From IMG/VR virus record IMGVR_UViG_3300031787_000848, positions 1 to 23,648 of that record: a stretch of 23,648 bases of DNA; one strand, given 5' to 3'. Of this stretch, positions 1 to 14,540 are shown one piece after another. Both the position numbers and the translations under genes were made by a program. The stretch comes from a virus. Positions within the stretch are counted from its first letter, which is position 1. Every line of letters starts with the position of its first letter. The notes beneath the pieces are model-generated. The model saw only the letters and a list, made by a program, of their open reading frames with translations, did not search any database and had not been told where the DNA came from.

Positions 1-1155
1 GCCGAGTTCGATCTTGACCGGCCCCTTGCTGATGTTCAGGGCCTCCGAGATAAACCCGCTCATGTTGCCGTGGATCGACAGCGTCGTGGCGTCGATGAAC
101 TGGCGCAGCAGCTTGTTGATGGCGATGTTGGTCTTGCCCAGCAGGAAGCCCAGACCGTAGCCGTAGAAGCCGTCCGGGTTCGCGAGGAAGCGGTAGTGGG
201 TATACTCCTCGATGGGCATACGACCGTTCAGCGGGCGACCAAACTCGTCCACCTCGTAGCGGACCTCGATGCGGAGCAGCTTCTCCGAGGTCACATCCAC
301 CCAGACCTTGTACGGCTCGGCAATGCCGTCACCGTCGAGGTCGAGGTCGCGATGCTGCTCGATGATCTGGGCCATGTCCTCGCTCTCCATCGAGGACGGT
401 TGGATGCCGCTGTCGCGGTCATTCTGCTGCTGGATCAGGGAGGTGACGTTGCCGATCATCATCGGCTCGGGCGGGAAGAGGAAGTAACCCTCCGAGGCCC
501 GGATGCGCCCCTCGTTCAACTGGAGATGGATCAGTTCGGTCTTCCGATGCACATCCTCGATGTTGATCGGGCCGATGTGGTAGGGGACGAACAGGTCCTC
601 CGCGCGCACGGGGCGGGTGACGATCCGGTTCATCACGGGGTCGAAGTAGGTCTTGCTGAAGTCGCTGCCGTGGACCGCCACGCGCAGGAGCATCGCGGAC
701 TTGTCCTCCTTGTAGGTCTGGTCCTTGAAGAACAGGGACCATTGGAGGAACTGGCTGACCCGCTTGGCGCGCTCGGCAGACCCCGGAATGGACGGGCTGA
801 CCGAGATGGCCGCAACGGGCATCCGGGTGCCAAAGAACGCCTTGTAGGCACGGGACTGGAAGGAGTTGCAGGCTTCCGTCAGCAGGCCAAGGGACTCGTC
901 GGACGAGCCGGGCCACGGGCGATTGATCGGGGCGTCCTGCTGGTTGTAGACGGCCACCCAGTCGGCGTGCATCGCATCCCACTCGGAGCGACTGTCCTTG
1001 TCGGCGCGGAAGTCCTCAAGGCACACCTGCGCGATGGACTCCCGCTCCTTCTCCTCCAGCGAATCCGCAATGTTGACGAGGAGGGCATTCAGGGCTTGGC
1101 GCTTCTTGCGCTTGACCTTGTCGTTGTCTCCTCGCCACTTGCGGTCTTCGCTCAT
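1..1155 (-). CDS. Phage portal protein, C-terminus cut by window edge
   Basis: The first 385 residues of a portal (head-tail connector) protein, which forms the dodecameric ring through which DNA is packaged and ejected. The protein starts MSEDRKWRGDND and contains PWPGSSDESLGLLTEACNSF near residues 80-100, then an aromatic-rich stretch (SRAYKAFFGTRMPV), the usual portal pattern of a Pro/Gly-Ser turn followed by a long helix. A DLDLDGDGIAEPY segment near residues 270-285 resembles the acidic linker seen before the clip region of P22-like portals. The start codon overlaps the stop of the upstream glycosyltransferase as ATGA, so translation is coupled. The frame stays open to position 1, and the rest of the protein lies outside. 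The family call rests on motif recognition plus position downstream of terminase; a related connector protein is less likely. Confidence 0.83.
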   Translation of the reverse strand, partial: MSEDRKWRGDNDKVKRKKRQALNALLVNIADSLEEKERESIAQVCLEDFRADKDSRSEWDAMHADWVAVYNQQDAPINRPWPGSSDESLGLLTEACNSFQSRAYKAFFGTRMPVAAISVSPSIPGSAERAKRVSQFLQWSLFFKDQTYKEDKSAMLLRVAVHGSDFSKTYFDPVMNRIVTRPVRAEDLFVPYHIGPINIEDVHRKTELIHLQLNEGRIRASEGYFLFPPEPMMIGNVTSLIQQQNDRDSGIQPSSMESEDMAQIIEQHRDLDLDGDGIAEPYKVWVDVTSEKLLRIEVRYEVDEFGRPLNGRMPIEEYTHYRFLANPDGFYGYGLGFLLGKTNIAINKLLRQFIDATTLSIHGNMSGFISEALNISKGPVKIELG

Positions 1156-3140
1156 GTGTAGGTCTCCTCAAGCGTCGGCATCATGCCACGGGTGTTCTGC
1201 CACAACCACGCAACCATGCCGGGACCGTGGGCGTCCCATTGAATCCACGGGCTTTCCTGGAGGAACCGGGTGAAGTCCTGCGCCTGACAGAGGATGTCCC
1301 TGTCCGTCCAGAACTGCCGGTTCCTGCCCCCGACAGCCACATCCATGAGGACGTACTTCGGGGTGCCATCCTGATGCCGCGCGGACTTGTCCAGCTTGCT
1401 CTCGTCCAGATGACAGGAGTCAAAGCCGTACAGCCCAATCGACTGGAAGCCGAGGAACTGCCACGCGAGGATCATAGCGCGGCCAGCCGACGAAGATCCT
1501 CCCCCCATGAGGAACTTCTGGTGCTCCGGGGGCAGCACGGACTTCTCGTCCGCACCTACCGCAGCATGCCAGCCATAGACCTTGCCGCCCGTCTCCAGCA
1601 GGCGCTTCACGACGCCGGGATCGACCATCGAGGCGCAAAAGTACCGGACACCCGGATAGGCTGCCGGGAGGAGATCGGCGCGTGCCTTGCCGTGGGTGCT
1701 GATGCCATCGTGCGGGCGGGGGTCAAGGAGGACGCATCCCCACGGGACCAGACCGGCGTCAATCAGCTTCTGGTGGCTGTGCTTCACGCAGAACAGGACC
1801 GCACCCTCCTCCACCTCGCGGCGGATCTCGGCCAGGGTCTCGGGCATCTCCAGCGACGGGCCAGCGGAAACGATGATGGCCCGCCTCATGTGGTGCTTCG
1901 TGTAGCGCACCCAGTTCTGGACCTGTTCCAGATTGGCCTTGATGTTGGCGTGGATGGTCTCGTTGGGGACGCAGTTCTGCGTCTGGACCACCATGTTGGT
2001 CTGGTAGGCGTTGTTCGTAATCGACTTGATCTCTTCTTTCTTGATTGCCGACATCTGCCGCTGGTGGAAGACAGGGAGGTCGTCGGGGATCACGGGGAAG
2101 TCGCGGGTCACGGCAACATGGACGAACCCAAGCCCATCCGTCGCCCGCTCCACGGACTCGAAGGCAATCGTGTCCGTTCGCACCGCATTGATGCCAAAGC
2201 GGCTGGTGTCGATGTGCTTGCCGTTCTCGTCGGACGAGTAAAAGCCAATGAAAATCAATGGCTTGTCCTCAAGTGCCAGAAGGGCGCGGCGAATGTCCTC
2301 GACCGGCACCATGTCGCAATCGACCACCGGCACGGCATCTTCCGGGACGCTGCCGTCGAAGTCCTTCGGGTTGACGTAGGCGGGCTTGGCACCGCCCAGC
2401 AGCCGCTCGACAATCTCAGCGTTTGTCATCCCCGCCTTGCGGTTGCCCTTCTTGTGGACGAACACGTTGTCCAGCGGGCTGGCCTCGAAGGCGTCCAGGC
2501 CATAGGGACCGGCTCCGGCGGGGCAGAGGTCGTGCCACTCGCTCTTCTCGCTCTCCATGTGTGCGATGACGCAGACCATGAAGACGTAGCTGTCATGCAG
2601 TTCCGACAGCTTCAGCACATCGTCCTTCTCGTACATGCCGATGAACTTGCGGAGGAAGTCAGCCCCCTTGCGGCGAAGGTTGAAGGCCATGAACCCGCAC
2701 TCGGGATGCGTGGCTGTCTGCGCGCGCGAGAGCAGCACCCCGTCCTTGTCCTCGGGCAGGATGTGCTTGAGGAAGTCCATCGTGAGCGGGGCGCGGGTCT
2801 CGACATCGCCGTCTAGCCAGACAAGCCAGTCGCATCCGTCGTCCAGCCCATCTTCTCCGCCATAGCTAGCATCCTCAAGAGCCTCCTTCAGAGCGAAGAC
2901 CTTGTGGGCGAATCGCAGAAGATCCTGCCGGTAGTCGTATCCCGGCTGCTTAGGATCCAACTTTTGAACCGCATGACGAGCCATGAAGTTCCGAAAATCA
3001 GGATCCATTTCGAGATGCTTGTCGCTGATGACATTAATTTCGATACTAGGATCCCAATACTTGCTAGCGGTCTCAAGCCAGCGACGCCCGTAGAGTTCAA
3101 AGCCCGCCTCCGACCAGGACGAGCAGATCATCACTTTCAT
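1152..3140 (-). CDS. GT-A glycosyltransferase fused to a DUF115 (MAF/MptE-like) domain
   Basis: 662 residues starting MKVMICSSWSEAG. The start at 3140 has GGAG 8 nt upstream and lies 1 nt after the preceding stop. Residues 1-260 look like a GT-A nucleotide-sugar glycosyltransferase: WLVWLDGDVETRAPL carries the metal-binding DGD at 110-112, followed by ECGFMAFNL at 147-155. Residues 260-410 have no recognised fold. Residues 418-640 match the DUF115 / 6-hydroxymethylpterin pyrophosphokinase MptE-like fold: AIIVSAGPSL (421-430), LFCVKHSHQKLIDAGLVPWG (449-468), CVLLDPRP (469-476), GGGSSSAGRAMILAW (546-560), IGLYGFDS (568-575). In bacteria, DUF115 proteins such as MAF attach nonulosonic sugars to flagellin. 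Substrate here is unknown. The last gene before the portal, it overlaps it by ATGA. Inference: it glycosylates a virion or host surface protein. Confidence 0.82.
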   Translation of the reverse strand: MKVMICSSWSEAGFELYGRRWLETASKYWDPSIEINVISDKHLEMDPDFRNFMARHAVQKLDPKQPGYDYRQDLLRFAHKVFALKEALEDASYGGEDGLDDGCDWLVWLDGDVETRAPLTMDFLKHILPEDKDGVLLSRAQTATHPECGFMAFNLRRKGADFLRKFIGMYEKDDVLKLSELHDSYVFMVCVIAHMESEKSEWHDLCPAGAGPYGLDAFEASPLDNVFVHKKGNRKAGMTNAEIVERLLGGAKPAYVNPKDFDGSVPEDAVPVVDCDMVPVEDIRRALLALEDKPLIFIGFYSSDENGKHIDTSRFGINAVRTDTIAFESVERATDGLGFVHVAVTRDFPVIPDDLPVFHQRQMSAIKKEEIKSITNNAYQTNMVVQTQNCVPNETIHANIKANLEQVQNWVRYTKHHMRRAIIVSAGPSLEMPETLAEIRREVEEGAVLFCVKHSHQKLIDAGLVPWGCVLLDPRPHDGISTHGKARADLLPAAYPGVRYFCASMVDPGVVKRLLETGGKVYGWHAAVGADEKSVLPPEHQKFLMGGGSSSAGRAMILAWQFLGFQSIGLYGFDSCHLDESKLDKSARHQDGTPKYVLMDVAVGGRNRQFWTDRDILCQAQDFTRFLQESPWIQWDAHGPGMVAWLWQNTRGMMPTLEETYT

Positions 3141-3141
3141 G

Positions 3142-3732
3142 TCACTTCTCCACGAAGATGCTGTCCTTGCCGACAACTTCGGCAAGACGGTAGCCAAGAA
3201 GGCGAAGGACGTTCAGAGAGTCCTCCTTTGGCCGCTCGATGATGAGGACGGGCTTGTGGCGCTTGAGCGTCTCCAATGCCCCGACGAGGACACGATGCTC
3301 GTATCCCTCGGTGTCGATCTTGACCAGCCCGAGTTCGTCGTATTTGAACTCATCGATGGCAAACATTGGCACAGCGCCCGTCGCCGCCGCCTCAAACCCG
3401 CGCGCCCCGGTGTTGGCAACCGCATCGACTCGCACGTTGCCCATGCCCCTCTGCGCGCCAGCGGCTCCATACGTCGCCCGCACGGCCCATGACTGCACGT
3501 TGCGGACAAGGCAGGCGTAGTTATGCGCGTCAGGCTCAAAAGCGTGGACGAGCGAAAAGTCCTTTGACATGCGCCGCGAGAAGATCCCGATATGCGCGCC
3601 AACGTCGATGGCCGTGCCAGATGCCTTGATGTGTGCTGACGCCTTTGCATACGAGGCCATCTGATACGACGAGATGTCGCCAACGAAATGCTGGTCTGCG
3701 CTCGGCAGCCACCAGTCTCCCACCTTCTTCAT
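3142..3732 (-). CDS. FkbM-family SAM-dependent methyltransferase
   Basis: 196 residues, probably a cytoplasmic O-methyltransferase. A Rossmann SAM site is visible as AIDVGAHIGIFS (41-52) with the acidic loop HAFEPDAHNY (63-72). The FkbM hallmark LVKIDTEGYEHRVL (136-149) and the strand PVLIIE (161-166) complete the Methyltransf_21 pattern. The family typically methylates sugar hydroxyls in polysaccharides, glycolipids or glycopeptides. The start at 3732 is chosen because GGGAGG stands 5-6 nt upstream and the ATG overlaps the stop of the preceding glycosyltransferase (ATGA). Longer in-frame readings upstream give low-complexity residues antisense to that gene. Its position between two glycosyltransferases suggests that it caps a transferred sugar; that is inference. 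Confidence 0.87.
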   Translation of the reverse strand: MKKVGDWWLPSADQHFVGDISSYQMASYAKASAHIKASGTAIDVGAHIGIFSRRMSKDFSLVHAFEPDAHNYACLVRNVQSWAVRATYGAAGAQRGMGNVRVDAVANTGARGFEAAATGAVPMFAIDEFKYDELGLVKIDTEGYEHRVLVGALETLKRHKPVLIIERPKEDSLNVLRLLGYRLAEVVGKDSIFVEK

Positions 3733-4472
3733 TCGAACCTCCCCCGCGTCTTCATCATGTAGTCGTACTCGTTGGTCCACCAGCCCGCGAACGGGATGTC
3801 TCGCATGTGGTCGAACCAAGGCCCGCCATCGGTGAAGTGCATGAGGCGCGGCTTGATGTTGTGTTTCGTGTGGCCGACGAGGAAGTTCCACCCAGGCGAC
3901 AGGTCATCGATCTCGCTGTCCTTCAGCCATGTAAACGTGTGCAACTCGCGACCCGTTGCATGGTTGACGAAGTCTGGCGTCAGGACACGGTTTGACGGAT
4001 GCCCGCAGTTGAACAGGATCACGGAGGACCAGTTCTTCCTCGGGTACGGCTTCTGGATCTGGCCGTCCATCTTGATCTGGTTCTGCGGCAAGTGGATCTG
4101 CTTGACCACCATCACCGCATACTTGTCGTCGGCCTCCTTGAGAAGCTCGCCAACATCATCCAACCACAGCATGTCGCAGTCGGTGAACAGCGCCCAGCCC
4201 TTGTAGTCCTGCAAGTGCGGGACGAGGAAGCGCGTGAAGGCGAACTCCGTGCTGAACGGAAGCCCGTCGCGGACATCAAACATCTGCCCGGTCTTCGGGT
4301 CCACGCCCCACTCGCGGTCGAAGATGCCCTTGCCGCGAAGGTCCTTGTGGCGTAGCGCGCGCACATGCAGCGGGATGCTGCTCTTGCGCTGGCAGGAGAA
4401 CATGCAGACATCGTAGGCGTCGATCTCCCGCGCGTCGAAGCCTATCCAGTATGGCAACGGGTCATCGGCCAT
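3729..4472 (-). CDS. GT-A (GT8-like) glycosyltransferase
   Basis: 247 residues from MADDPLPYWIGFD. The metal-binding motif is ALFTDCDMLWLDD with DCD at 98-100. The downstream sections PYPRKNWSSVILFNC (142-156) and MHFTDGGPWFDH (211-222) follow the retaining GT8-like plan, in which a C-terminal His also helps hold the metal. The N-terminal WIGFDAREIDAYDV is the usual first strand. The start at 4472 is preferred because GGAGG lies 5 nt upstream; an in-frame ATG at 4484 would add four residues but lacks a good site. It overlaps the upstream methyltransferase by 11 nt and the downstream FkbM gene by 4 nt. Donor and acceptor cannot be read from the sequence. No membrane segment, so it would act in the cytoplasm. 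Confidence 0.8.
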   Translation of the reverse strand: MADDPLPYWIGFDAREIDAYDVCMFSCQRKSSIPLHVRALRHKDLRGKGIFDREWGVDPKTGQMFDVRDGLPFSTEFAFTRFLVPHLQDYKGWALFTDCDMLWLDDVGELLKEADDKYAVMVVKQIHLPQNQIKMDGQIQKPYPRKNWSSVILFNCGHPSNRVLTPDFVNHATGRELHTFTWLKDSEIDDLSPGWNFLVGHTKHNIKPRLMHFTDGGPWFDHMRDIPFAGWWTNEYDYMMKTRGRFE

Positions 4473-4980
4473 CATGGCCTCCATCGAAATGGATCATCAC
4501 GAACGCATCGCTCTGGAACCGATGGGTGTGGATGTAGTTCGTCCACACATCCTGGCTCCAGAGCGTCAGGTGTGCGTTGCGGCCATCCGGCAGAGTCTTC
4601 TTTGCCGGGAACGTCGCGATGCCGAAGACCACGAACTTCTTGGCGCGGATCGTCGCGTCGAACACCGCGCGCCTGAGTTCCTCGTCCTCAAGATGCTCCA
4701 ACACATCAAGGCAGATGACGCCATCGAATGGCAGCATCGGGTTCGGCAGCTTGTCGATGCCGGGGACAGCGGGATCGTAGAGCGTCGGCTTCTCGACGCC
4801 CCACTTCTCATGCAGCTTCAGGGAGTCGTACTGCATCCCCTTGCCGCTGCCAAAGTCGAGGATGGACTTGGCTCCATAGTCCTTGATGGCCTTGGCAACG
4901 ATGTCAGACCACTTCTCGGTGCTGTGGCCGGGGAACTTGCCCTCGGAGTGCATCTGCTTGTAGAGCGCAAGCGTACTCAT
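4462..4980 (-). CDS. Class I SAM-dependent methyltransferase
   Basis: 172 residues. Motif I is SILDFGSGKGMQY (39-51) and motif II/acidic is TLYDPAVPG (67-75). The catalytic-core strand VICLDVLEHLEDEEL (88-102) is typical of Methyltransf_11/23-type small-molecule or sugar methyltransferases. The C-terminal part (HLTLWSQDVWTNYI) is the variable substrate-binding region. The protein is short for the class but has the complete SAM core. The start overlaps the preceding stop (ATGA). The ribosome site is weak, so translation probably depends on coupling. A nucleic-acid substrate is less likely because no target-recognition domain is present, but it is not excluded. Confidence 0.83.
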   Translation of the reverse strand: MSTLALYKQMHSEGKFPGHSTEKWSDIVAKAIKDYGAKSILDFGSGKGMQYDSLKLHEKWGVEKPTLYDPAVPGIDKLPNPMLPFDGVICLDVLEHLEDEELRRAVFDATIRAKKFVVFGIATFPAKKTLPDGRNAHLTLWSQDVWTNYIHTHRFQSDAFVMIHFDGGHDGR

Positions 4981-5273
4981 TGGCTTTTACCAAGTGAACG
5001 AATTGAATCGATTGCGTCATTTGCTGCGTCAGCAAAACCAAACAAAATCGACTGAGGATTCCATCCAACGGGCCTGCGCTCATGCACCATCACGCCATCA
5101 GGGTCCAGTTTGTTGTATTTGCATATTTCCGCTGATACCGCCTTGAGCAGATCGACTTCTGATTGCACCACAATATCTATGATTGCTTCCGCCAAGCACT
5201 CAAGGTCCTTTGGATCGTGAGACTCCCCGCCAAGATCGCGAGCCACTTTCTCAATGAGTTCCTGCCTAGTCAT
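4977..5273 (-). CDS. Hypothetical 98-residue acidic protein
   Basis: No family recognised. The sequence starts MTRQELIEKVARDLGG and is largely helical and acidic, with a central segment (CLAEAIIDIVVQSEVDLLKAV) that could pack as a hydrophobic helix. GGAGGG lies 4 nt upstream of the ATG. The gene overlaps its neighbours at both ends by ATGA. Local base composition is visibly more AT-rich than the flanking genes (for example 5020-5170), which hints at recent acquisition. Coding status is well supported by the RBS and overlaps; function is unknown. Confidence 0.7.
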   Translation of the reverse strand: MTRQELIEKVARDLGGESHDPKDLECLAEAIIDIVVQSEVDLLKAVSAEICKYNKLDPDGVMVHERRPVGWNPQSILFGFADAANDAIDSIRSLGKSQ

Positions 5274-5572
5274 GCGTCCCTCCTCTTCCTGATGCAGAGT
5301 TCATAGCCAGCGGCGTTGAGCGCGGCCTCGAAGGTAACGAGCGCTGGCGAGTGCTGGTAGCGCCATTGGCTCATCGTGTCGATCTGTACGCCAGACCGCT
5401 CGGACAGCACCTTGAACGTGAGGAACGGGTCCTCGTTGACCAGTTCGTAGAACTCACGGACCAGCGGGTGCATGTTGCCGGTGGTCGCCAGCTTGATGCA
5501 GCGACGACCACGACGATTGTCGGCCATCTTGCGGTAGCCCATGATGCGGGCCGGGGTCATTTCCTGCGGCAT
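5270..5572 (-). CDS. Small helix-turn-helix-like protein
   Basis: 100 residues. A basic N-terminus (YRKMADNRRGRRCIKL, 13-28) precedes a segment that reads as a helix-turn-helix: FKVLSERSGVQIDTMSQWR (53-71), then PALVTFEAALNAAGYEL (76-92), resembling the end of XRE/Cro-type folds. The likely start at 5572 overlaps the stop of the nuclease gene (TGATG); an in-frame ATG at 5560 is an alternative. It may be a DNA-binding regulator or a partner of the neighbouring nuclease. Motif strength is moderate. Confidence 0.62.
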   Translation of the reverse strand: MPQEMTPARIMGYRKMADNRRGRRCIKLATTGNMHPLVREFYELVNEDPFLTFKVLSERSGVQIDTMSQWRYQHSPALVTFEAALNAAGYELCIRKRRDA

Positions 5573-5901
5573 CAGCCGACAAGCCTCTGGAACGTGGACC
5601 ACTTCATGTAGACGCGCGGCTCGTTCTCGGGCTGGAACGGCTCCGGGTCGATCCGCACGACAAGGACATCAGCGCGGCCAAGCCATCGCTCGCCCGTGGC
5701 CCATGCGTCCTTCTTGCGCTGCTTTGCTTCGACAAGGATCTGTGTCCCGTCCTTCAGTCGAGCAGATACATCGTGAGGAAACGCATCGAAAGCGCCAGAG
5801 CCAGGTTGCCGATGAGCAGCCAAGCCAAGGCTTTCAAGCTGCTTGACGATCCATTGCTCAAGGCGACGGCCCTTTGCCTTCGCGGACTTGGCTTTTATCA
5901 C
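5572..5901 (-). CDS. Holliday junction resolvase-like PD-(D/E)XK nuclease
   Basis: 109 residues beginning with GTG. KAKGRRLEQWIVKQLESLG (8-26) followed by GSGAFDAFPHDVSA (35-48) and QILVEAKQR (54-62) is the Hjc-type PD-(D/E)XK layout, with E15, D44, E58 and K60 as the likely metal/catalytic set. These enzymes cut four-way junctions or branched DNA. In phages they clear recombination and replication intermediates before packaging, which suits a place beside terminase. The GTG at 5901 is chosen over the longer ATG reading because GGGGAG lies 8 nt upstream and the codon overlaps the preceding stop as GTGA. A VRR-NUC or other small PD-(D/E)XK role is possible. Confidence 0.75.
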   Translation of the reverse strand: MIKAKSAKAKGRRLEQWIVKQLESLGLAAHRQPGSGAFDAFPHDVSARLKDGTQILVEAKQRKKDAWATGERWLGRADVLVVRIDPEPFQPENEPRVYMKWSTFQRLVG

Positions 5902-6683
5902 AGCGGAATCTCCCCATTGCCCTTCATATGCTCCAAAGCCTCGCCGTTCGCCATCTCCTTGAAGTTCCACATGCGACCGGCAATCAGGCAGAACGTCTCA
6001 TAGCGCCGTTCGCCCCACTTTCCGTCGGTCAGGTCTCCGGTTTTCCACGGCCAGAGCGTCCTCGGTGCGGTCATCACGACCTCGCAGCCCTTGCGGAGCG
6101 CCTCATAGCCCAAACCGGAGTTGAACGACGCCACGACGGCCACGTTCTCCCAGAAATCGTCGGTTTTTGGGCTTTTCTGGGTCGTCACGACCATCATGCC
6201 GGGGTAGAGACGCCTCAAGGTGGCCCTCCACTTGCCGTCAAAGTCGGGGGAGAGACCGTAGTGCTGCACCATGTATGCACTCGGCGGCTGGTAGATGACC
6301 AGTCGGCTCTTCTTGATGGCCCTCTTTGGCTCCAGCTTGAGCAATCCCTTCTTCTGGAGGGTTTCCAAGCGGCGCGAATCGTACTCGACGGTCAGCTTCC
6401 GCTCGTTTGACTGGTTGTTAAGCGAGAAACGGAAGTACCCGCCCCTGCTGTTCAGGTCCTCCGTGCGCCCAAAGAAGGCGTGGTCCACATGGACGTAGGA
6501 TTTCCATTCCTCCTGGGTCTTGCGGTACATCTCCGCGCCGCCGTAGAGGATGCCGTAGTGGAGATTGATCTCCGCGAGCGGCTCGCCGTGGCGCGCGTAA
6601 TGCTCACCGTGCATCCAGTTGCGGGCAAGGTTCTCGCCAAGCTGGTGCGGAGCGCCGCTGGGCGCAAAGAACTTGATCGTCAT
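5898..6683 (-). CDS. GT-B / capsule-synthesis-like protein (putative glycosyltransferase)
   Basis: 261 residues without signal peptide or membrane segment. The clearest clue is AVVASFNSGLGYEALRKGCE (182-201), which resembles the donor-binding loop of KpsC/KpsS-like capsule (Kdo) transferases and other GT-B enzymes. There a Ser-rich turn precedes Gly-x-Glu-Ala-Leu and a small residue before the next strand. LVIYQPPSAYMVQHYG (128-143) could be the linker strand and first C-terminal-lobe loop. The protein is shorter than complete GT-B enzymes, so it may be only a minimal or degenerate version. Start and stop overlap both neighbours by 4 nt. Role inferred from its company; catalytic residues are not proven. 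Confidence 0.66.
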   Translation of the reverse strand: MTIKFFAPSGAPHQLGENLARNWMHGEHYARHGEPLAEINLHYGILYGGAEMYRKTQEEWKSYVHVDHAFFGRTEDLNSRGGYFRFSLNNQSNERKLTVEYDSRRLETLQKKGLLKLEPKRAIKKSRLVIYQPPSAYMVQHYGLSPDFDGKWRATLRRLYPGMMVVTTQKSPKTDDFWENVAVVASFNSGLGYEALRKGCEVVMTAPRTLWPWKTGDLTDGKWGERRYETFCLIAGRMWNFKEMANGEALEHMKGNGEIPL

Positions 6684-7015
6684 CGTGCAAGTCGCCCCGT
6701 GACCTTGAGTTTCACATCCTCGTAGCGCCTACCGGCCATCAGGCCAGCAAGGATCTCCTCTGGGTCCGTGGCGGGAAGGTCGCCAAGCGAGGGAATATCG
6801 CCCATCGTCATGTAGGTCGGGCGCACCTTGCTGTTTGGCCCCCGAGAATAGCCGATGCGTTGCACAAGACCCTGCTCCACAAGCCGCATGACGACGACCA
6901 GCACCTTGGATGCCGTCGCGCCGCTGACCATGTCGCGGATCTCCGCAACCGCCCATTCGCCTTCCTGGCGAGCGATCACATCGCGGATCTCTGAAGCTAT
7001 CGTGCCGCGTACCAT
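6680..7015 (-). CDS. Winged-helix-like DNA-binding protein
   Basis: 111 residues. IRDVIARQEGEWAVAEIRDM, then VSGATASKVLVVVMRLVEQG and LVQRIGYSRG read as helix-helix-recognition helix-wing of a winged helix-turn-helix (about residues 10-60). The ATG at 7015 has GGAGG 5 nt upstream and shares one base with the terminase stop (TGATG); a GTG immediately before it is too close to the ribosome site. The C-terminal half (PRPTYM onward) has no recognised domain. It could be a late regulator or DNA-binding packaging factor. Lying directly after large terminase, it is the first gene of the inserted module. Confidence 0.68.
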   Translation of the reverse strand: MVRGTIASEIRDVIARQEGEWAVAEIRDMVSGATASKVLVVVMRLVEQGLVQRIGYSRGPNSKVRPTYMTMGDIPSLGDLPATDPEEILAGLMAGRRYEDVKLKVTGRLAR

Positions 7016-8511
7016 CACACCCTCCGTGTGCGTACTGCGTATGGGTCCCTCGAAACCGATCCTCCACTCAACTCCCGTGCGAGGTCAAGCATTTCCTCGT
7101 TGTACCTGTCTTTTTCCGTCGTGACCTTGCTGTGCATCGAGATTGCGAAGGACACCTCATCATAGACATGGTCCTCCTGCCGTCTGGTGGCTGGCCCCTT
7201 GTCAGGCTCAAGCTCGTCAAGCGTCAGGCCGGGGCAGGTGCGCCAGAAGTGGCGGCAGTTGTCGGTCACGAACAGCAGCGGCGACCAAGTGCCATCCGAT
7301 TGCTGCTCGCCAATGAGGTGCTGGACCATCGTCGTGTAGTTGGCCTTCCGATCCCTGCGGCCCTGCCGGAGGATGAATCGACCGGAAGTGGCGGTCCTCA
7401 TGTTGTCCTGAGGGGAGGGACCGTCCTGGCTGGCCCACATCTGCGGGTCAGCGACCCGGAAGTCCATCGGCGGCAACTGCATCTCGCCTTCAAGCCGGAT
7501 GACCTCGCGGGCCACCTCGGCTGCCGACATGCGCGCGCCCATGTCCGCTTCCCCGTTCCACCCGTACCACTCGGCAAAGCGGATCTTCGCGCCGGGCGGG
7601 AGGTAGACCTCGGGGAATCCGTCCTTGGCCTTCAGAGTTGCTCCCTCCGATATGCAGTACCATCCGATGGAGAAGGGCTTGGCTGTGCCCCAGTCCATAG
7701 CCATGAAATGGGTCCAATGTCGTGGGGGCTTGAAGCCGCGAATGAGATGCTTGCCCCGGTCGAGCATGGATAGGGCTGCTCCCGAAACCACATCCCAGTC
7801 GCCGTCCCGTAGTGCCTTGGCCCGCTCGGGGGACAAAGCGGTGAAGGATCCTTCATAGCTGTCAACATCCAGATGCGGGTTGTCGTCCATCTTTGCGGGG
7901 ATGTAGATGCTCTTCCACCCCGGCGAGTTCTTGGTCTTGGTCGTCTTGTCGTGGAAGAAGTGCATCGGCGGGGCTTGCTCGATGAAGATGTCCCGCAAGA
8001 GGTTGTGCGCGGGGCCGCCGGGATTGCTGCCGATGACAATCCTCGGGAACACATCCTCCTGCTGGGCCTTGTAGCGACCCAGACGCACTCGGGTACGGAG
8101 GAACTTGATCTGGTCAGGCAGCAGGAGCGCCGCTTCGTCCAGCCCCAGCCAATGCATCTCCGCGCCCTGGTACTTGTAGATGTCCGCCAAATCCTCCGCG
8201 AAGCAGAACTGGAGGAACGCCCCGTTGTAGAACGTCAGCTTCCGATCCGTTTCCTTCCAAACCGCCACCTCAGGGGGGATCGCCATCTGCTGGATGGGGA
8301 TCAGGTGGTTGTCCTTCAGTTCCGGGTAGGTCCGCCGAAAGAGATACGCCTGCAAGCCAGCGTTCTGGAGGCACGAAATGATGCCATCCATCCTGATGGC
8401 ATGACTCTTGCCCCCGCCCGCAGCACCACCGTAGAGAACCTGCCGCGCCTTAACTGCGTGGAAGATCCTCTGCTTCTCCGATGGCTGGTAGCCCAGCGAC
8501 CATTGGGGCAT
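7015..8511 (-). CDS. terL: Terminase large subunit (packaging ATPase/nuclease)
   Basis: 498 residues, full length. It powers DNA translocation into the procapsid through the portal and cuts the concatemer. Walker A is GGAAGGGKSHA (28-38). Walker B is MHWLGLDEAALL (119-130) with D125 and catalytic E126. The coupling motif is IVIGSNPGG (158-166). The RNase-H-like nuclease has FMAMDWGTAK (D273), FRVADPQM (D355) and EDHVYDEVSFA (D447/D451). GGAG lies 7 nt before the ATG. The first 62 nt overlap the small-subunit gene in another frame, so the two are probably translated in a fixed ratio. Confidence 0.96.
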   Translation of the reverse strand: MPQWSLGYQPSEKQRIFHAVKARQVLYGGAAGGGKSHAIRMDGIISCLQNAGLQAYLFRRTYPELKDNHLIPIQQMAIPPEVAVWKETDRKLTFYNGAFLQFCFAEDLADIYKYQGAEMHWLGLDEAALLLPDQIKFLRTRVRLGRYKAQQEDVFPRIVIGSNPGGPAHNLLRDIFIEQAPPMHFFHDKTTKTKNSPGWKSIYIPAKMDDNPHLDVDSYEGSFTALSPERAKALRDGDWDVVSGAALSMLDRGKHLIRGFKPPRHWTHFMAMDWGTAKPFSIGWYCISEGATLKAKDGFPEVYLPPGAKIRFAEWYGWNGEADMGARMSAAEVAREVIRLEGEMQLPPMDFRVADPQMWASQDGPSPQDNMRTATSGRFILRQGRRDRKANYTTMVQHLIGEQQSDGTWSPLLFVTDNCRHFWRTCPGLTLDELEPDKGPATRRQEDHVYDEVSFAISMHSKVTTEKDRYNEEMLDLARELSGGSVSRDPYAVRTRRV

Positions 8512-9196
8512 TCGCGCTCTCCGTAACGTCGATGACGTTCGCCAATGCCGCCTTGTCCTCGCGGCTCACCATGATCTCGATGGTCAGCTTGTCGTCCTTG
8601 CCGACCGCCTCCTGCTTGAACTCGGCCTTCGCGATCCCGCGCTCCAGCAGCCAAGCCGCAGCCCGCCAGTCGCGATCCTCCATGATCTTCTTGACCAGAG
8701 GTGCCGCCGACATGGCGCGAGCCTGCCGGAACATCGTGTCGAGACGCGGCTCCGAGTTCCGGTACTTCTGGCACACCCGCTCCGTGATCCCAGCCGCCTC
8801 CGCTGCCAAGACAACCGGCATACCACTCGCAACATTGTGCAAAGCCTGCGCCACTTCCACCATAGGAAAAGTAGCCTCATCCCACCTAGGCTTACTAACC
8901 CTCGCAAGCATATCCAACCACCCTGGCACAGAACTAGGTCTCCCTCCCTGTCCTACGGGAGGAGCATCCTCGTTAGCCACGGGTAGGCTCTTGTTATGCC
9001 CCCGCAAGGCAAGCGCAGAGTCCCGCGCAGCACGGTCCCACTCAAGGGCGCGCTTCGCCACGTTGCGCTCATGCACCGGATGGCGCTTGGTGATGTACCC
9101 AAGGGAAGCCCCGGCCTCCCAAAGAATACGGATATCCGCCCAGTCCACAAAGCCGTCCTGGGACAGCTCATGGTCGCTCTCAACCTCATAGGCCAT
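8450..9196 (-). CDS. terS: Terminase small subunit-like DNA-packaging protein
   Basis: 248 residues. Residues 18-60 (WADIRILWEAGASLGYITKR) look like one helix-turn-helix. A second, VAQALHNVASGMP followed by AAEAAGITERVCQKYRNSEP (131-150), precedes the segment DRDWRAAAWLLERGI (174-188), a motif seen in many phage small terminases just before the oligomerisation and terminase-binding tail. The gene lies immediately upstream of large terminase with 62 nt overlap. The start at 9196 has only a weak ribosome site (TTGGG); codons upstream give an Arg/Pro-rich non-phage-like extension, so 9196 is the best choice. It would bind the pac or cos site. Confidence 0.75.
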   Translation of the reverse strand: MAYEVESDHELSQDGFVDWADIRILWEAGASLGYITKRHPVHERNVAKRALEWDRAARDSALALRGHNKSLPVANEDAPPVGQGGRPSSVPGWLDMLARVSKPRWDEATFPMVEVAQALHNVASGMPVVLAAEAAGITERVCQKYRNSEPRLDTMFRQARAMSAAPLVKKIMEDRDWRAAAWLLERGIAKAEFKQEAVGKDDKLTIEIMVSREDKAALANVIDVTESANAPMVAGLPAIGEAEDLPRS

Positions 9197-9444
9197 ACCC
9201 AACGGTAGGTTTTTTTCTGGTTGGGGGCAAGGGTCTGTGTAGTGGCAAGCGTGGGGACATGGCCTTCGCGCCCGCCTGCGAGATCGCGAAAAGCCCAAGC
9301 CGGGGGGCCGGTTTTGCCGCGCCGCACAATCGATGGGGGCCGGGGGCCTAGCCTCGCCGCAGAATGGCCTGGCGCTGGCCCGGACGCTGGCACTGGTAGG
9401 GCCGCGAGCGGAAGGGCCGGAGCTCCCCCCGGCCCCCGCCCTGC
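9197..9444. other. Noncoding GC-rich spacer upstream of small terminase
   Basis: About 250 bp with no convincing gene on either strand. It has long G/C runs (9300-9440) and a T7 tract at 9209-9215, which is an A tract on the transcribed strand just before the small-terminase start. A weak candidate leftward promoter (TTGCCC, 17 nt, TACCGT) would place transcription start almost at the start codon. In many phages pac/cos sites lie in or near the small-terminase gene, so this spacer is a candidate recognition region; nothing in the sequence proves it. Confidence 0.4.
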
Positions 9445-9666
9445 TTAGTACGGGTAAGGAGAGCGCCGAGCGCCAATGCTAGCCATGAGCCGCTCCCATG
9501 TCATGGGGCGCTTTGCGCTGATGCGCCTCATATCGGCGTCGGCAGCGGCGTATGCCACGGGGTCAGGATGCGGCCCCGTAGGCCGGGCGGCGTAGCGGCG
9601 TTGAGCAGCCCTAGTGAAGGCCAGGGCCAAGTGGCCGGGCCAGTCTTTGCAGAAATCAGCGTACAC
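9445..9666 (-). CDS. Hypothetical 73-residue basic protein (GTG start)
   Basis: Starts with GTG, preceded by AAGGAGG and a 5-nt spacer, an excellent ribosome site that decides the start. The sequence (MYADFCKDWPGHLALAFTRA at the N-terminus) is Arg/Ala-rich, with no recognised domain. The ribosome site overlaps the stop of the membrane peptide encoded upstream, indicating an operon. It ends with TAA before a GC-rich spacer. Function unknown; a small DNA-associated or regulatory late protein is possible. Confidence 0.62.
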   Translation of the reverse strand: MYADFCKDWPGHLALAFTRAAQRRYAARPTGPHPDPVAYAAADADMRRISAKRPMTWERLMASIGARRSPYPY

Positions 9667-9676
9667 TTGAACCTCC

Positions 9677-9763
9677 TTAAATGTACATCGCCAGCACAGC
9701 CAGCGCCGCCATGCCGATGAAGCCGATGGTCGCCGTGAGGGCGTCTAGGATGCGGCGGGTCAT
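9677..9763 (-). CDS. 28-residue single-pass membrane micropeptide
   Basis: Reads MTRRILDALTATIGFIGMAA and then LAVLAMYI. It has two N-terminal arginines followed by about 20 hydrophobic residues, the profile of a tiny N-in membrane peptide. The ATG shares a base with the preceding stop (TGATG). A run of eight G residues lies 4 nt upstream. The stop TAA abuts the AAGGAGG of the next gene. It could be a lysis, superinfection-exclusion or regulatory micropeptide; the short length keeps confidence moderate. Confidence 0.5.
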   Translation of the reverse strand: MTRRILDALTATIGFIGMAALAVLAMYI

Positions 9764-9882
9764 CACACCCCCCCCGCTCGAAGCGCCGCCTCGCTCAGCG
9801 CCGCCATGATGCCGACGGCCAGCGTCGCGGCGAACAACGTCGCCATGATGCCGTAGAAGAAGATGTCATCGAGCTTGTTCAT
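9763..9882 (-). CDS. 39-residue membrane peptide, first gene of the leftward operon
   Basis: Starts MNKLDDIFFYGIMATLFAAT and continues as LAVGIMAALSEAALRAGGV: a short acidic N-terminus and one transmembrane segment (residues 8-30). GGAGGG is 5-6 nt upstream of the ATG. The predicted promoter at 9911-9939 would give a leader of about 20 nt. It overlaps the next membrane micropeptide by one base. No family recognised; possibly a holin-like or exclusion peptide. Confidence 0.62.
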   Translation of the reverse strand: MNKLDDIFFYGIMATLFAATLAVGIMAALSEAALRAGGV

Positions 9883-9910
9883 TGTGTCCCTCCAGTTAGT
9901 TGTATGTGCG

Positions 9911-9939
9911 TGTATATAGGGTGTGGTTGGGTATGGCAA
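9911..9939 (-). promoter_or_regulatory. Leftward sigma70-like promoter for the packaging operon
   Basis: On the minus strand TTGCCA (9934-9939) is followed after exactly 17 nt by TATACA (9911-9916), matching the -35 and -10 consensus at 4 of 6 and 5 of 6 positions. Transcription would begin near 9904 and give a leader of about 22 nt before the ATG at 9882, whose ribosome site is GGAGGG. It is the only strong leftward promoter seen ahead of the terminase/portal block. Confidence 0.6.
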
Positions 9940-10232
9940 TGGGAAATGGCGATGCCTGACATGCTTTTCCTGCATCCCCCTATTCGATTGCCGCATGGCT
10001 TGCAGGCTAGAACCTGGCCGAGAGGAACCTGATCCGCCTTGTCTCCCCCCGTGCTATCTCCCCCCTTAGAGGATGATAGAGCCGCTTTCGGGGGCCTCTT
10101 CTTTCGCAGCGCATCCCGCCACGCCCTTACACGCCCTAGACCCCGCAAGCGGCACGGTATCAGGCTACCATATCGCCGCTCCGGCCCTTCCGCTCGCCTA
10201 CACCATGACACACACAAGCACAAACGCATTTA

Positions 10233-10288
10233 TTGCATAGCACATATGCAAACATTGCGTAACTGGCAAACGCAATTCACGTTATTCT
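10233..10288 (+). promoter_or_regulatory. Rightward early promoter/operator cassette, copy 1
   Basis: Two dyads in tandem. TTGCATA (10233-10239), spacer GCACA, TATGCAA (10245-10251) is a perfect 7-bp inverted repeat. TTGCGT (10255-10260), 9-nt spacer, ACGCAA (10270-10275) is a perfect 6-bp one. A -10-like TATTCT (10283-10288) follows; the position 17 nt upstream (TAACTG) is a poor -35, so the second dyad covers the -35 region. The cassette is repeated at 11538-11594. This suggests a shared activator or repressor controlling both early units. The gene for that protein was not identified. Confidence 0.6.
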
Positions 10289-10323
10289 ATGCCCCGTGCC
10301 GCATGGTGCGGCCTGGAGGGTAG
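10246..10323 (+). other. Possible leader peptide ORF (25 codons) over operator copy 1
   Basis: An ATG inside the first dyad opens a 25-codon frame (MQTLRNWQTQFTLFYA...) whose TAG stop lies inside the ribosome site of the next gene, 2 nt before its ATG. The equivalent frame in copy 2 starts MQTLRSWYTQSTISYA, 11 of 16 residues identical. No Shine-Dalgarno precedes either ATG, and substitutions are not concentrated at third positions, so DNA-level conservation of the operator is the simpler explanation. Confidence 0.22.
10298..10312 (+). promoter_or_regulatory. Small hairpin just upstream of the first early ribosome site
   Basis: GCCGCA (10298-10303), loop TGG, TGCGGC (10307-10312): a perfect 6-bp stem ending a few bases before GGAGGG of the gene at 10326. 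It may affect initiation or mRNA stability. No equivalent is present in copy 2. Confidence 0.3.
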
Positions 10324-10325
10324 CA

Positions 10326-10775
10326 ATGGTATTGGATAGCTTGCGGCCTGGAACGTACAGGCTGGCGATTGACATAAAGAACCCTTGCGCCGATAGGCGG
10401 AAGAAGAACGACTGGCGCGCCGCGCCTATCATCTCTGCGGGGACGGGGTTTGTAGTAGAGGCTTTGTTAAACGAAGAGGGCCAGCCTATCGGCGCTTCCA
10501 TCATTTCTGCGGACGCCGGGAACGATTGGTCATGCGTCCCCTACTATCCGCGCGGTAGCCTCCGCCCACTCTTCGAAGCAATCGCGCCTAACCTTGTGCG
10601 CGTTGGCGACGAAACCCGGACGCCCGGACAGATAGCCGCCGCTATCCGCGAAGCCGCGCCAGACTTGCTGTCGGCCTTGGAGGATATTATCGGGGACGGA
10701 TACTCGACGCAAGCTATCGCGCCATCGGCTTATGAAGCCGCGCGGGCGGCTATCGCCAAGGCCAGGGGGGAGTGA
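10326..10775 (+). CDS. Hypothetical early protein, 149 residues
   Basis: First gene of early unit A. The ATG at 10326 has GGAGGG 5 nt upstream. The N-terminal half (RLAIDIKNPCADRRKKNDWR) has no recognised domain. The C-terminal half, with PDLLSALEDIIGDGYSTQ and ending ARAAIAKARGE, resembles the helical tail found in many small phage and plasmid proteins of unknown role. No membrane segment. The gene is followed after 4 nt by the next start, so both are probably translated from one message. Confidence 0.75.
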   Translation: MVLDSLRPGTYRLAIDIKNPCADRRKKNDWRAAPIISAGTGFVVEALLNEEGQPIGASIISADAGNDWSCVPYYPRGSLRPLFEAIAPNLVRVGDETRTPGQIAAAIREAAPDLLSALEDIIGDGYSTQAIAPSAYEAARAAIAKARGE

Positions 10776-13252: not shown

Positions 13253-13549
13253 TTGTTCCCCAACCGTGCAAGGCCGATGGCTGTCAGTCAGCTACGCCTC
13301 TGCCCCATTCCGGGAAGACAGCAGGACAGGCGTTCAAGCGAAGCCAGAATGATGCCTTGAAACAGAGGCGCGCAGGCCGAGCGAGTTGCATCGCCAGGTT
13401 CTGCCACCGCGATATGGAGACAGTCGTAAGGGGGTGTGGTGGGGTAGTTGCCATCACATCGGATCGCCGCCCCGCCCATTGCCTAGCACAGGCTCAAAGG
13501 TGACTGATGCAATCTGCTCCGTGGCTCCAGATGGGACCCAGAAGCAGGA

Positions 13550-13577
13550 ACTCCGACTTTCCTCGGATGGTCGGAGT
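13550..13577 (+). other. Stable hairpin ahead of the methyltransferase
   Basis: ACTCCGAC (13550-13557) pairs perfectly with GTCGGAGT (13570-13577) around a 12-nt loop, 40 bp upstream of the methyltransferase ATG. No U tract follows, so it is not a standard terminator. The CCCAGAAGCAG repeats lie on both sides. It may be a structured leader element, mRNA processing site or part of an origin. Confidence 0.4.
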
Positions 13578-13616
13578 CTGCCCGCACACCACCCCAGAAG
13601 CAGACAGGAGGAGGAG

Positions 13617-14540
13617 ATGCCAGCCTACTACAACGAGATTGATCCCTATGCAGCACAATGGCTGCGGAACCTGATCGCTGCTGGACACATAGCTCCAGGC
13701 GACGTTGACGAAAGGAGCATCGTGGATGTCAAGCCGGACGACCTCATCGGATACACACAATGCCACTTCTTCGCCGGCATCGGAGGCTGGAGCCTCGCCG
13801 CGCGCCTCGCAGGATGGCCCGACGACCGACCTCTTTGGACAGGCTCCTGCCCCTGCCAGCCCTTCTCGTCGGCAGGACAGCGCAAGGGGGAAGCAGATGA
13901 GCGACACCTATGGCCCGTCCTTGCCGCCCTCGTCCGCGAGCGGAGGCCCCCTGTCGTGGCTGGAGAACAGGTTGCGAGCAAGGATGGGTTGCGCTGGCTC
14001 GATGGAGTATGCGCTGACCTGGAAGCTGCGAACTACACCGTCTGGTCGGCGGATTTCTGCGCTGCGAGCGTCGGCGCACCGCACATACGGCAGCGGCTAT
14101 GGTGGGTGGCGCAGTCCGTCAGCGAGCGACGCAGAGGGTGGCGTGATGCAGATCCGACCGTTGACTCACGCGCGGTACAAGCTGCGGGACGAAGCGCATT
14201 TGGCGGGGGCGGCATTGCTCTCGGGTTGTCTGACTCCATCGGCCAACGAGGATGCAGCGGGGCTGCCGGGGGCGGCATTGCTCTCGGGCTGGGCGACTCC
14301 AACGACGCGCGACCACAAGGACGGGTCAACGGATCTGGACAAAGCCGGGGTGCCGATCAACGGACTGCTTGGTCGTCAGGTCAGCCTGTCCCGTGCAGAG
14401 ACGGAAAATCGCGGCGCGTTGAACCCGGCATTCAGCCGCTGGCTCATGGGGTATCCAACCGAGTGGGACGCCTGCGCGCCTACGGTAACGCGATTGTCCC
14501 GCAGGTCGCGGCCGAAATCCTGAGAGCGTACCTAGACTGA
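13617..14540 (+). CDS. C5 cytosine-specific DNA methyltransferase
   Basis: 307 residues. Motif I is FFAGIGGWS (51-59), motif IV is GSCPCQPFS (76-84) with catalytic C80, motif VI is GEQVAS (116-121; Gln replaces the usual Asn of ENV), motif VIII is [14 protein letters not shown] (152-165) and motif X is [18 protein letters not shown] (285-302). It transfers a methyl group to cytosine C5 in a specific DNA sequence. The variable region between VIII and X (about 166-280) is the target-recognition part and is Gly-rich with an internal repeat. GGAGG-rich sequence is just upstream of the ATG. It likely protects phage DNA from restriction. Most of it overlaps another open frame that also looks coding. 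Confidence 0.9.
13726..14523 (+). CDS. Overlapping-frame ORF of a phage family found with C5 methyltransferases
   Basis: 265 residues wholly inside the methyltransferase gene in another frame. The order [16 protein letters not shown] (35-50), [20 protein letters not shown] (65-84), [17 protein letters not shown] (92-108), repeated GW-x-S/T-P segments (127, 167, 188), and [20 protein letters not shown] (231-250) is recalled from many annotated phage hypothetical proteins. The start at 13726 has GGAG 8 nt upstream; ATG 13897 after AGGGGG is an alternative. It may be a truly dual-coded protein, or a shadow frame kept open by methyltransferase codon constraints and repeatedly annotated. Confidence 0.42.
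14205..14288 (+). repeat. 63-bp spaced direct repeat in the dual-frame region
   Basis: The 21-mer from 14205 to 14225 recurs exactly at 14268-14288, and similarity continues 12 bp further to GACTCC. The 63-bp offset is 21 codons, so both frames stay in phase: GGGIALGL in the methyltransferase frame and GAALLSG in the other. It is consistent with a tandem duplication that lengthened the variable region. Confidence 0.8.

Follow-up and report, generated by a model that had tools for sequence, protein, structure and literature searches.

The window analysed here is the entire IMG/VR record IMGVR_UViG_3300031787_000848 (23,648 b), a phage genome fragment, and our subject is a set of predicted glycosyltransferase and methyltransferase genes on its minus strand between the large terminase gene terL (7015..8511; phrog_979 1e-32, phrog_2 1e-29), which forms the upstream border, and the portal gene (1..1155), which is truncated by the window end. 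A near-identical record of 45,768 b (G001) with a 127-bp terminal overlap is probably the complete genome, and its portal protein has 779 amino acids (phrog_1216 8.6e-19 on the full gene). The minus-strand order is terS, terL, g112, g261, a nuclease gene, g110, g98, MT172, GT251, an FkbM gene, g681 and portal. The glycan/methyl module comprises g261 (5898..6683), encoding a glycosyltransferase-like protein with a KpsC-like GT-B fold; MT172 (4462..4980), a putative S-adenosylmethionine-dependent methyltransferase whose Methyltransf_23 match is borderline (27.4 bits, cut-off 27; phrog_24759 3e-13); GT251 (3729..4472, with an alternative upstream ATG at 4484; phrog_28018 1e-60); an FkbM-family methyltransferase (3142..3732; TIGR01444, 71.8 bits, cut-off 37.7); and g681 (1152..3140), in which a GT-A domain is fused to a Maf/DUF115 (MptE-like) domain (Pfam, 53.1 bits, cut-off 34.6). 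An original prediction, made from the letters of the window, had listed the glycosyltransferase-like proteins, two methyltransferases and the DUF115 domain, and all are present; it did not mention that a Hjc-like nuclease and three small open reading frames, none linked to glycans, also lie inside the interval, which is thus not purely a glycan module.

With best coding starts, each gene from terL onwards overlaps the next, by 1, 4, 4, 1, 4, 4, 11 and 4 nucleotides in turn; a 1-nucleotide gap (position 3141) and a last overlap of 4 with portal follow, exactly the order, 1-11-nucleotide overlaps and single gap first described. Consensus scans of window positions 1-10400 gave a single promoter-like site on the minus strand, at 9504-9476 upstream of terS, and a single terminator-like site on that strand, which falls within terL. 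Between terL and portal no internal promoter or terminator rose above chance, counts being at or below those in shuffled sequence, and the proposed lack of signals of the module's own is borne out. The module is translationally coupled to the packaging genes, and its expression would be late, in step with head assembly.

The arrangement is conserved within this lineage. We compared about 26 IMG/VR contigs spanning terL to portal, with terL identities from 100% down to 51%, and all carry, in the same order between the two genes, g261, GT251 and either g681 or the Maf part of it, in an interval of 4.0 to 8.2 kb. Pairwise distances of these three proteins correlate with the terL and portal distances (r 0.80-0.95), and dN/dS (the ratio of non-synonymous to synonymous substitution rates), computed against contigs L007 and L011, is about 0.09-0.16 for the glycan genes (about 0.09-0.13 for g681, GT251 and g261) and 0.07-0.11 for portal and terL. 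No member of the lineage was found to have terL adjacent to portal with these genes elsewhere under their own promoters; unrelated phages use other sites, often among late genes. We therefore rejected a moron or a recent insertion, since the module shows no signals above chance, is present in all spanning relatives and has distances that follow terL and portal; the suggestion that these are not usual moron genes stands, as they are conserved and co-inherited with both. It is also very unlikely that they are hitchhikers in a permissive site, with no function linked to packaging. The mobility of such genes among viruses and the differing methyltransferase sets of relatives would suit hitchhiking, but the core of g261, GT251 and g681 is never absent from the site, follows terL and portal in its inheritance and evolves under purifying selection.

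The methyltransferases are the variable part. FkbM and MT172 are each absent from some clades; in L057 a CmcI/rhamnosyl-O-methyltransferase-like gene takes the place of the usual methyltransferases and is accompanied in the terL-portal slot, at about 4916-6480, by an NAD-dependent epimerase/dehydratase (159 bits); and Maf carries a fused Methyltransf_24 domain in L063 and L165 and a fused Methyltransf_23 domain in L126. A methyl function thus outlasts these exchanges. Contig L165, from a Myxococcales metagenome-assembled genome, has the same genes between terL and portal, with GT-A and Maf encoded separately, and the g681 fusion can thus be read as a joining of neighbours. The glycan interval of L165 also holds a radical SAM/SPASM enzyme (L165:7985-8929), perhaps a further modification step, and in L007 a gene for a putative vitamin uptake transporter (Vut_1; L007:5589-6131) lies between FkbM and g681.

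The Maf/DUF115 domain of g681 is the most specific clue to function. Its family is also found in the Maf flagellin O-glycosyltransferases (pfam01973; 5mu5), and the best fold match to g681 is Maf 5mu5 (Foldseek, 2.5e-7), ahead of BoGT6a (GT6), the PBCV-1 glycosyltransferase 2p72 (8e-5) and the archaeal HPPK 8sd5. Aligned into a profile, eight Maf-type proteins of phages reached Maf in the PDB at 9e-5 and MptE at 0.028; lineage profiles of g681, GT251 and g261 gave no credible PDB match, and only the broader Maf alignment reached 5mu5. Relatives score 36-76 bits for the Pfam domain, and the GT-A domain of g681 carries a DxD at residues 110-112. By fold and by profile the DUF115 domain is thus closer to Maf than to MptE. 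That it is instead an MptE-type pterin pyrophosphokinase, with the cluster metabolic and no glycan made, finds an echo in the Pfam family name MptE-like and in 8sd5 among the fold matches, but given the better Maf matches and neighbours that are all glycosyl- or methyltransferases we regard it as extremely improbable.

Maf enzymes O-glycosylate protein serine or threonine residues with nonulosonic acids, and some use CMP-Neu5Ac or CMP-Kdo (PMC11339370). The three-domain Maf architecture and its flagellin context were not found here: the domain is fused to a GT-A domain or, in relatives, a methyltransferase, it lacks the Maf N- and C-terminal context, it sits in a phage late operon and no flagellin lies nearby. 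We therefore rejected g681 as a flagellin Maf proper; its working is Maf-like at most. Used as a scan query, the Maf protein of L126 recovered nothing but itself, no Maf domain was found in isolate phage records, and a literature search that missed most subscription journals found nothing on DUF115 or Maf in phages; a viral structure library does contain a phage protein labelled MptE-like.

Pfam assigned no glycosyltransferase family to any predicted glycosyltransferase of the window, and these calls rest on folds for g261 and the N-terminal part of g681, on PHROG and GT8/NDP (nucleoside diphosphate)-sugar-transferase relatives for GT251, and on conserved DxD motifs. The DxD of GT251 (D98/D100 of the 247-amino-acid form) is invariant, 12 of 15 relatives match GT8, and relatives in Caulobacter and Stenotrophomonas phages are annotated as NDP-sugar transferases; judged by these motifs and matches, GT251 is a predicted GT-A transferase. 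For g261 a high-confidence model (AlphaFold pLDDT 90) has a GT-B-like structure, and its top PDB fold matches, KpsC, KrkA and WbbB, are all Kdo transferases (KpsC 8fux, Foldseek 3e-7, template-modelling (TM) score 0.51). Those enzymes are defined by a QXXXD nucleophile and an HP CMP-binding motif (PMC10148158, PMC12887879). At the aligned positions, however, g261 has QPPS-variable, with no conserved D and no HP, and nothing matches them at the sequence level: a PDB search with a 31-sequence viral g261 profile did not recover KpsC, and Pfam Capsule_synth has no match in G001 or the genomes of L165 and L166. We rejected a retaining beta-Kdo transferase (GT99/107/140) because, although the fold fits, the motifs fail. 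Across the 31-member viral family D67, S189 and G199 are invariant. We therefore describe g261 as a GT-B-fold protein and, with QXXXD and HP absent, assign it no donor sugar.

Homologues of these genes, together a glycan toolkit, extend far beyond the lineage. A viral scan confirmed at least 598 stretches with GT251 relatives, and a genome scan gave only two contigs from metagenome-assembled genomes; we kept 80 of the viral loci for a view of their neighbourhoods, and most of these also hold g261-like, GT-A and FkbM genes. Toolkit parts follow the capsid gene in L126, L166, MW202512 and Roseobacter phage CRP-9 (capsid and tail roles in L126 and L166 being read from gene order), and they follow tail genes in Caulobacter phage CcrColossus. 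In Tetraselmis virus S20 they have head genes on one side and head-closure genes on the other, and in MW202713 they are found upstream of terL. Of 20 further contigs that carry both GT251 and terL, 19 (L126 and 18 with T4-size terminases) have GT251 on the terL strand, 6-17 kb downstream of that gene; the set was picked for GT251 and its members are not independent. The toolkit is thus mobile among viruses, yet fixed in the window lineage.

Considering these data together, we suggest that the module probably enables the phage to glycosylate a virion protein late in infection, drawing on nucleotide sugars of the host and adding methyl caps. In g681 the Maf-type domain would most likely put the first sugar on a serine or threonine of a virion protein (capsid, decoration or tail), the g681 GT-A domain, GT251 and g261 would elongate the glycan, and the two methyltransferases would O-methylate it. 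In this account the genes, their coupling, conservation and co-inheritance and the domain folds are observations, and enzyme activity, donors, the sequence of reactions, the link to protein and the virion acceptor are inferred from them. The donors would be nucleotide sugars of the host; CMP-Kdo is made by most Gram-negative hosts. As regards donor-sugar genes elsewhere in the genome, a check proposed with the original prediction, no donor-synthesis family was seen among the 49 proteins of G001 and the window, while the relative L057 has its epimerase. More tentatively, and with rather more doubt than confidence, we propose that this lineage has turned a Maf-type protein O-glycosyltransferase, an enzyme type hitherto associated with flagellin modification, into a core late function. 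The enzyme would glycosylate a head protein during head assembly, and the position of the transferase genes between terL and portal would ensure joint production of decoration and packaging proteins.

Several observations weigh against virion glycosylation. The g681 structure model is of moderate confidence only, and g261 lacks the motifs of the enzymes that share its fold. Three long marine contigs of T4-like type have the cluster downstream of terL but at least 50 kb from the capsid gene, and in Pelagibacter phage Mosig it adjoins ribonucleotide-reductase (nucleotide-metabolism) genes; linkage to head genes is therefore not universal.

The main rival is host-surface modification, in which late changes to lipopolysaccharide, capsule or S-layer glycans would spare progeny from debris and block superinfecting phages. 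Late expression would fit it, KpsC-like and GT8-like folds are typical of lipopolysaccharide and capsule assembly, and the T4-like phages have clusters away from capsid genes. We nonetheless consider it unlikely, as the Maf-type domain is of a protein-glycosyltransferase type, a family scan of the 49 proteins revealed neither a flippase nor a polymerase nor any other membrane family for polysaccharide export, and unrelated phages repeatedly place the toolkit beside capsid or tail genes. Lysogenic serotype conversion is also unlikely, because no integrase family was found among these proteins. Hypermodification of phage DNA bases by glycosylation and methylation, as a defence against host restriction, has a precedent in virus-encoded glycosyltransferases that hypermodify DNA, as cited from Pyle et al. 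2024 in PMC12619734, and the phage has a C5 DNA methyltransferase. The chance that the module does this is nevertheless slight: the 49 proteins include no thymidylate synthase or dCMP hydroxymethylase family, Maf, FkbM and rhamnosyl-O-methyltransferase-like companions are atypical of such systems, and the module sits late, after the replication genes. Because a Maf-type protein O-glycosyltransferase domain is the most specific clue, a protein target is favoured, and the evidence leans towards the virion rather than the host surface.

Glycosylation of virions by phage enzymes is already known, and what appears new is that a core late gene encodes a Maf-type enzyme. In mycobacteriophage Che8 and relatives, phage-encoded glycosyltransferases have been shown to glycosylate capsid and tail-tube proteins (Freeman et al. 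2023, described in PMC11256854 and PMC12619734), and in phage XacN1 proteomic analysis detected glycoproteins (PMC5852040). These mycobacteriophage descriptions report the glycans themselves and mention no Maf/DUF115 domain; in contrast, the set in the window lineage is core and vertically inherited, stands between the terL and portal genes, and would make a glycan that is deduced from genes. The chlorovirus PBCV-1 offers another parallel, as its own glycosyltransferases act on the major capsid protein and its capsid-glycan enzyme 2p72 is matched by the GT-A domain of g681; however, PBCV-1 is a eukaryotic algal virus with a non-homologous gene order and a glycan that has been demonstrated. The clusters of CcrColossus, Tetraselmis virus S20 and Mosig hold homologues of GT251, g261, MT172 or FkbM, but at other positions, and no Maf domain was found in them.

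The remaining genes of the interval are a Hjc/RusA-like PDDEXK nuclease (5572..5901; phrog_244 1.8e-6, NF040854 2e-4) and the small open reading frames g112 (6680..7015), with a gene about 30% identical in closer relatives only, g110 (5270..5572), and g98 (4977..5273), the last of which is found in the closest relatives only; all are on the minus strand. The nuclease is kept beside terL in nearly all relatives and is missing from the L063 group; its dN/dS against L019 was a frame artefact and was disregarded. Possibly it resolves replicated DNA ahead of packaging. In L045 (4608-6935), and likewise in L016, L027 and L046, the terL frame is interrupted after residue 450 by an insert that contains a Hint domain and an HNH-like stretch, features that would make it intein-like, and terL of L059 also breaks at residue 450. 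An N4/N6 DNA methylase lies between terS and terL in L055 (8794-10038). Elsewhere, the C5-cytosine DNA methyltransferase gene occupies window positions 13386-14540 on the plus strand, in the early region, and G001 carries a GroES-like Cpn10 gene (L069:9548-9865, L069 being the same record; 35 bits, cut-off 21) about 2 kb upstream of its gene for the major head protein (L069:11887-12774).

Phage virion glycosylation has been demonstrated in few systems. If our reading is true, it would be a core rather than an accessory trait of this lineage, carried out with a Maf-type protein-linking enzyme. As hundreds of viral contigs have GT251 relatives, mostly with g261-like genes nearby where examined, and the cultured phages CcrColossus and CRP-9 hold toolkit parts beside virion genes, sugar decoration may be widespread among environmental phages.
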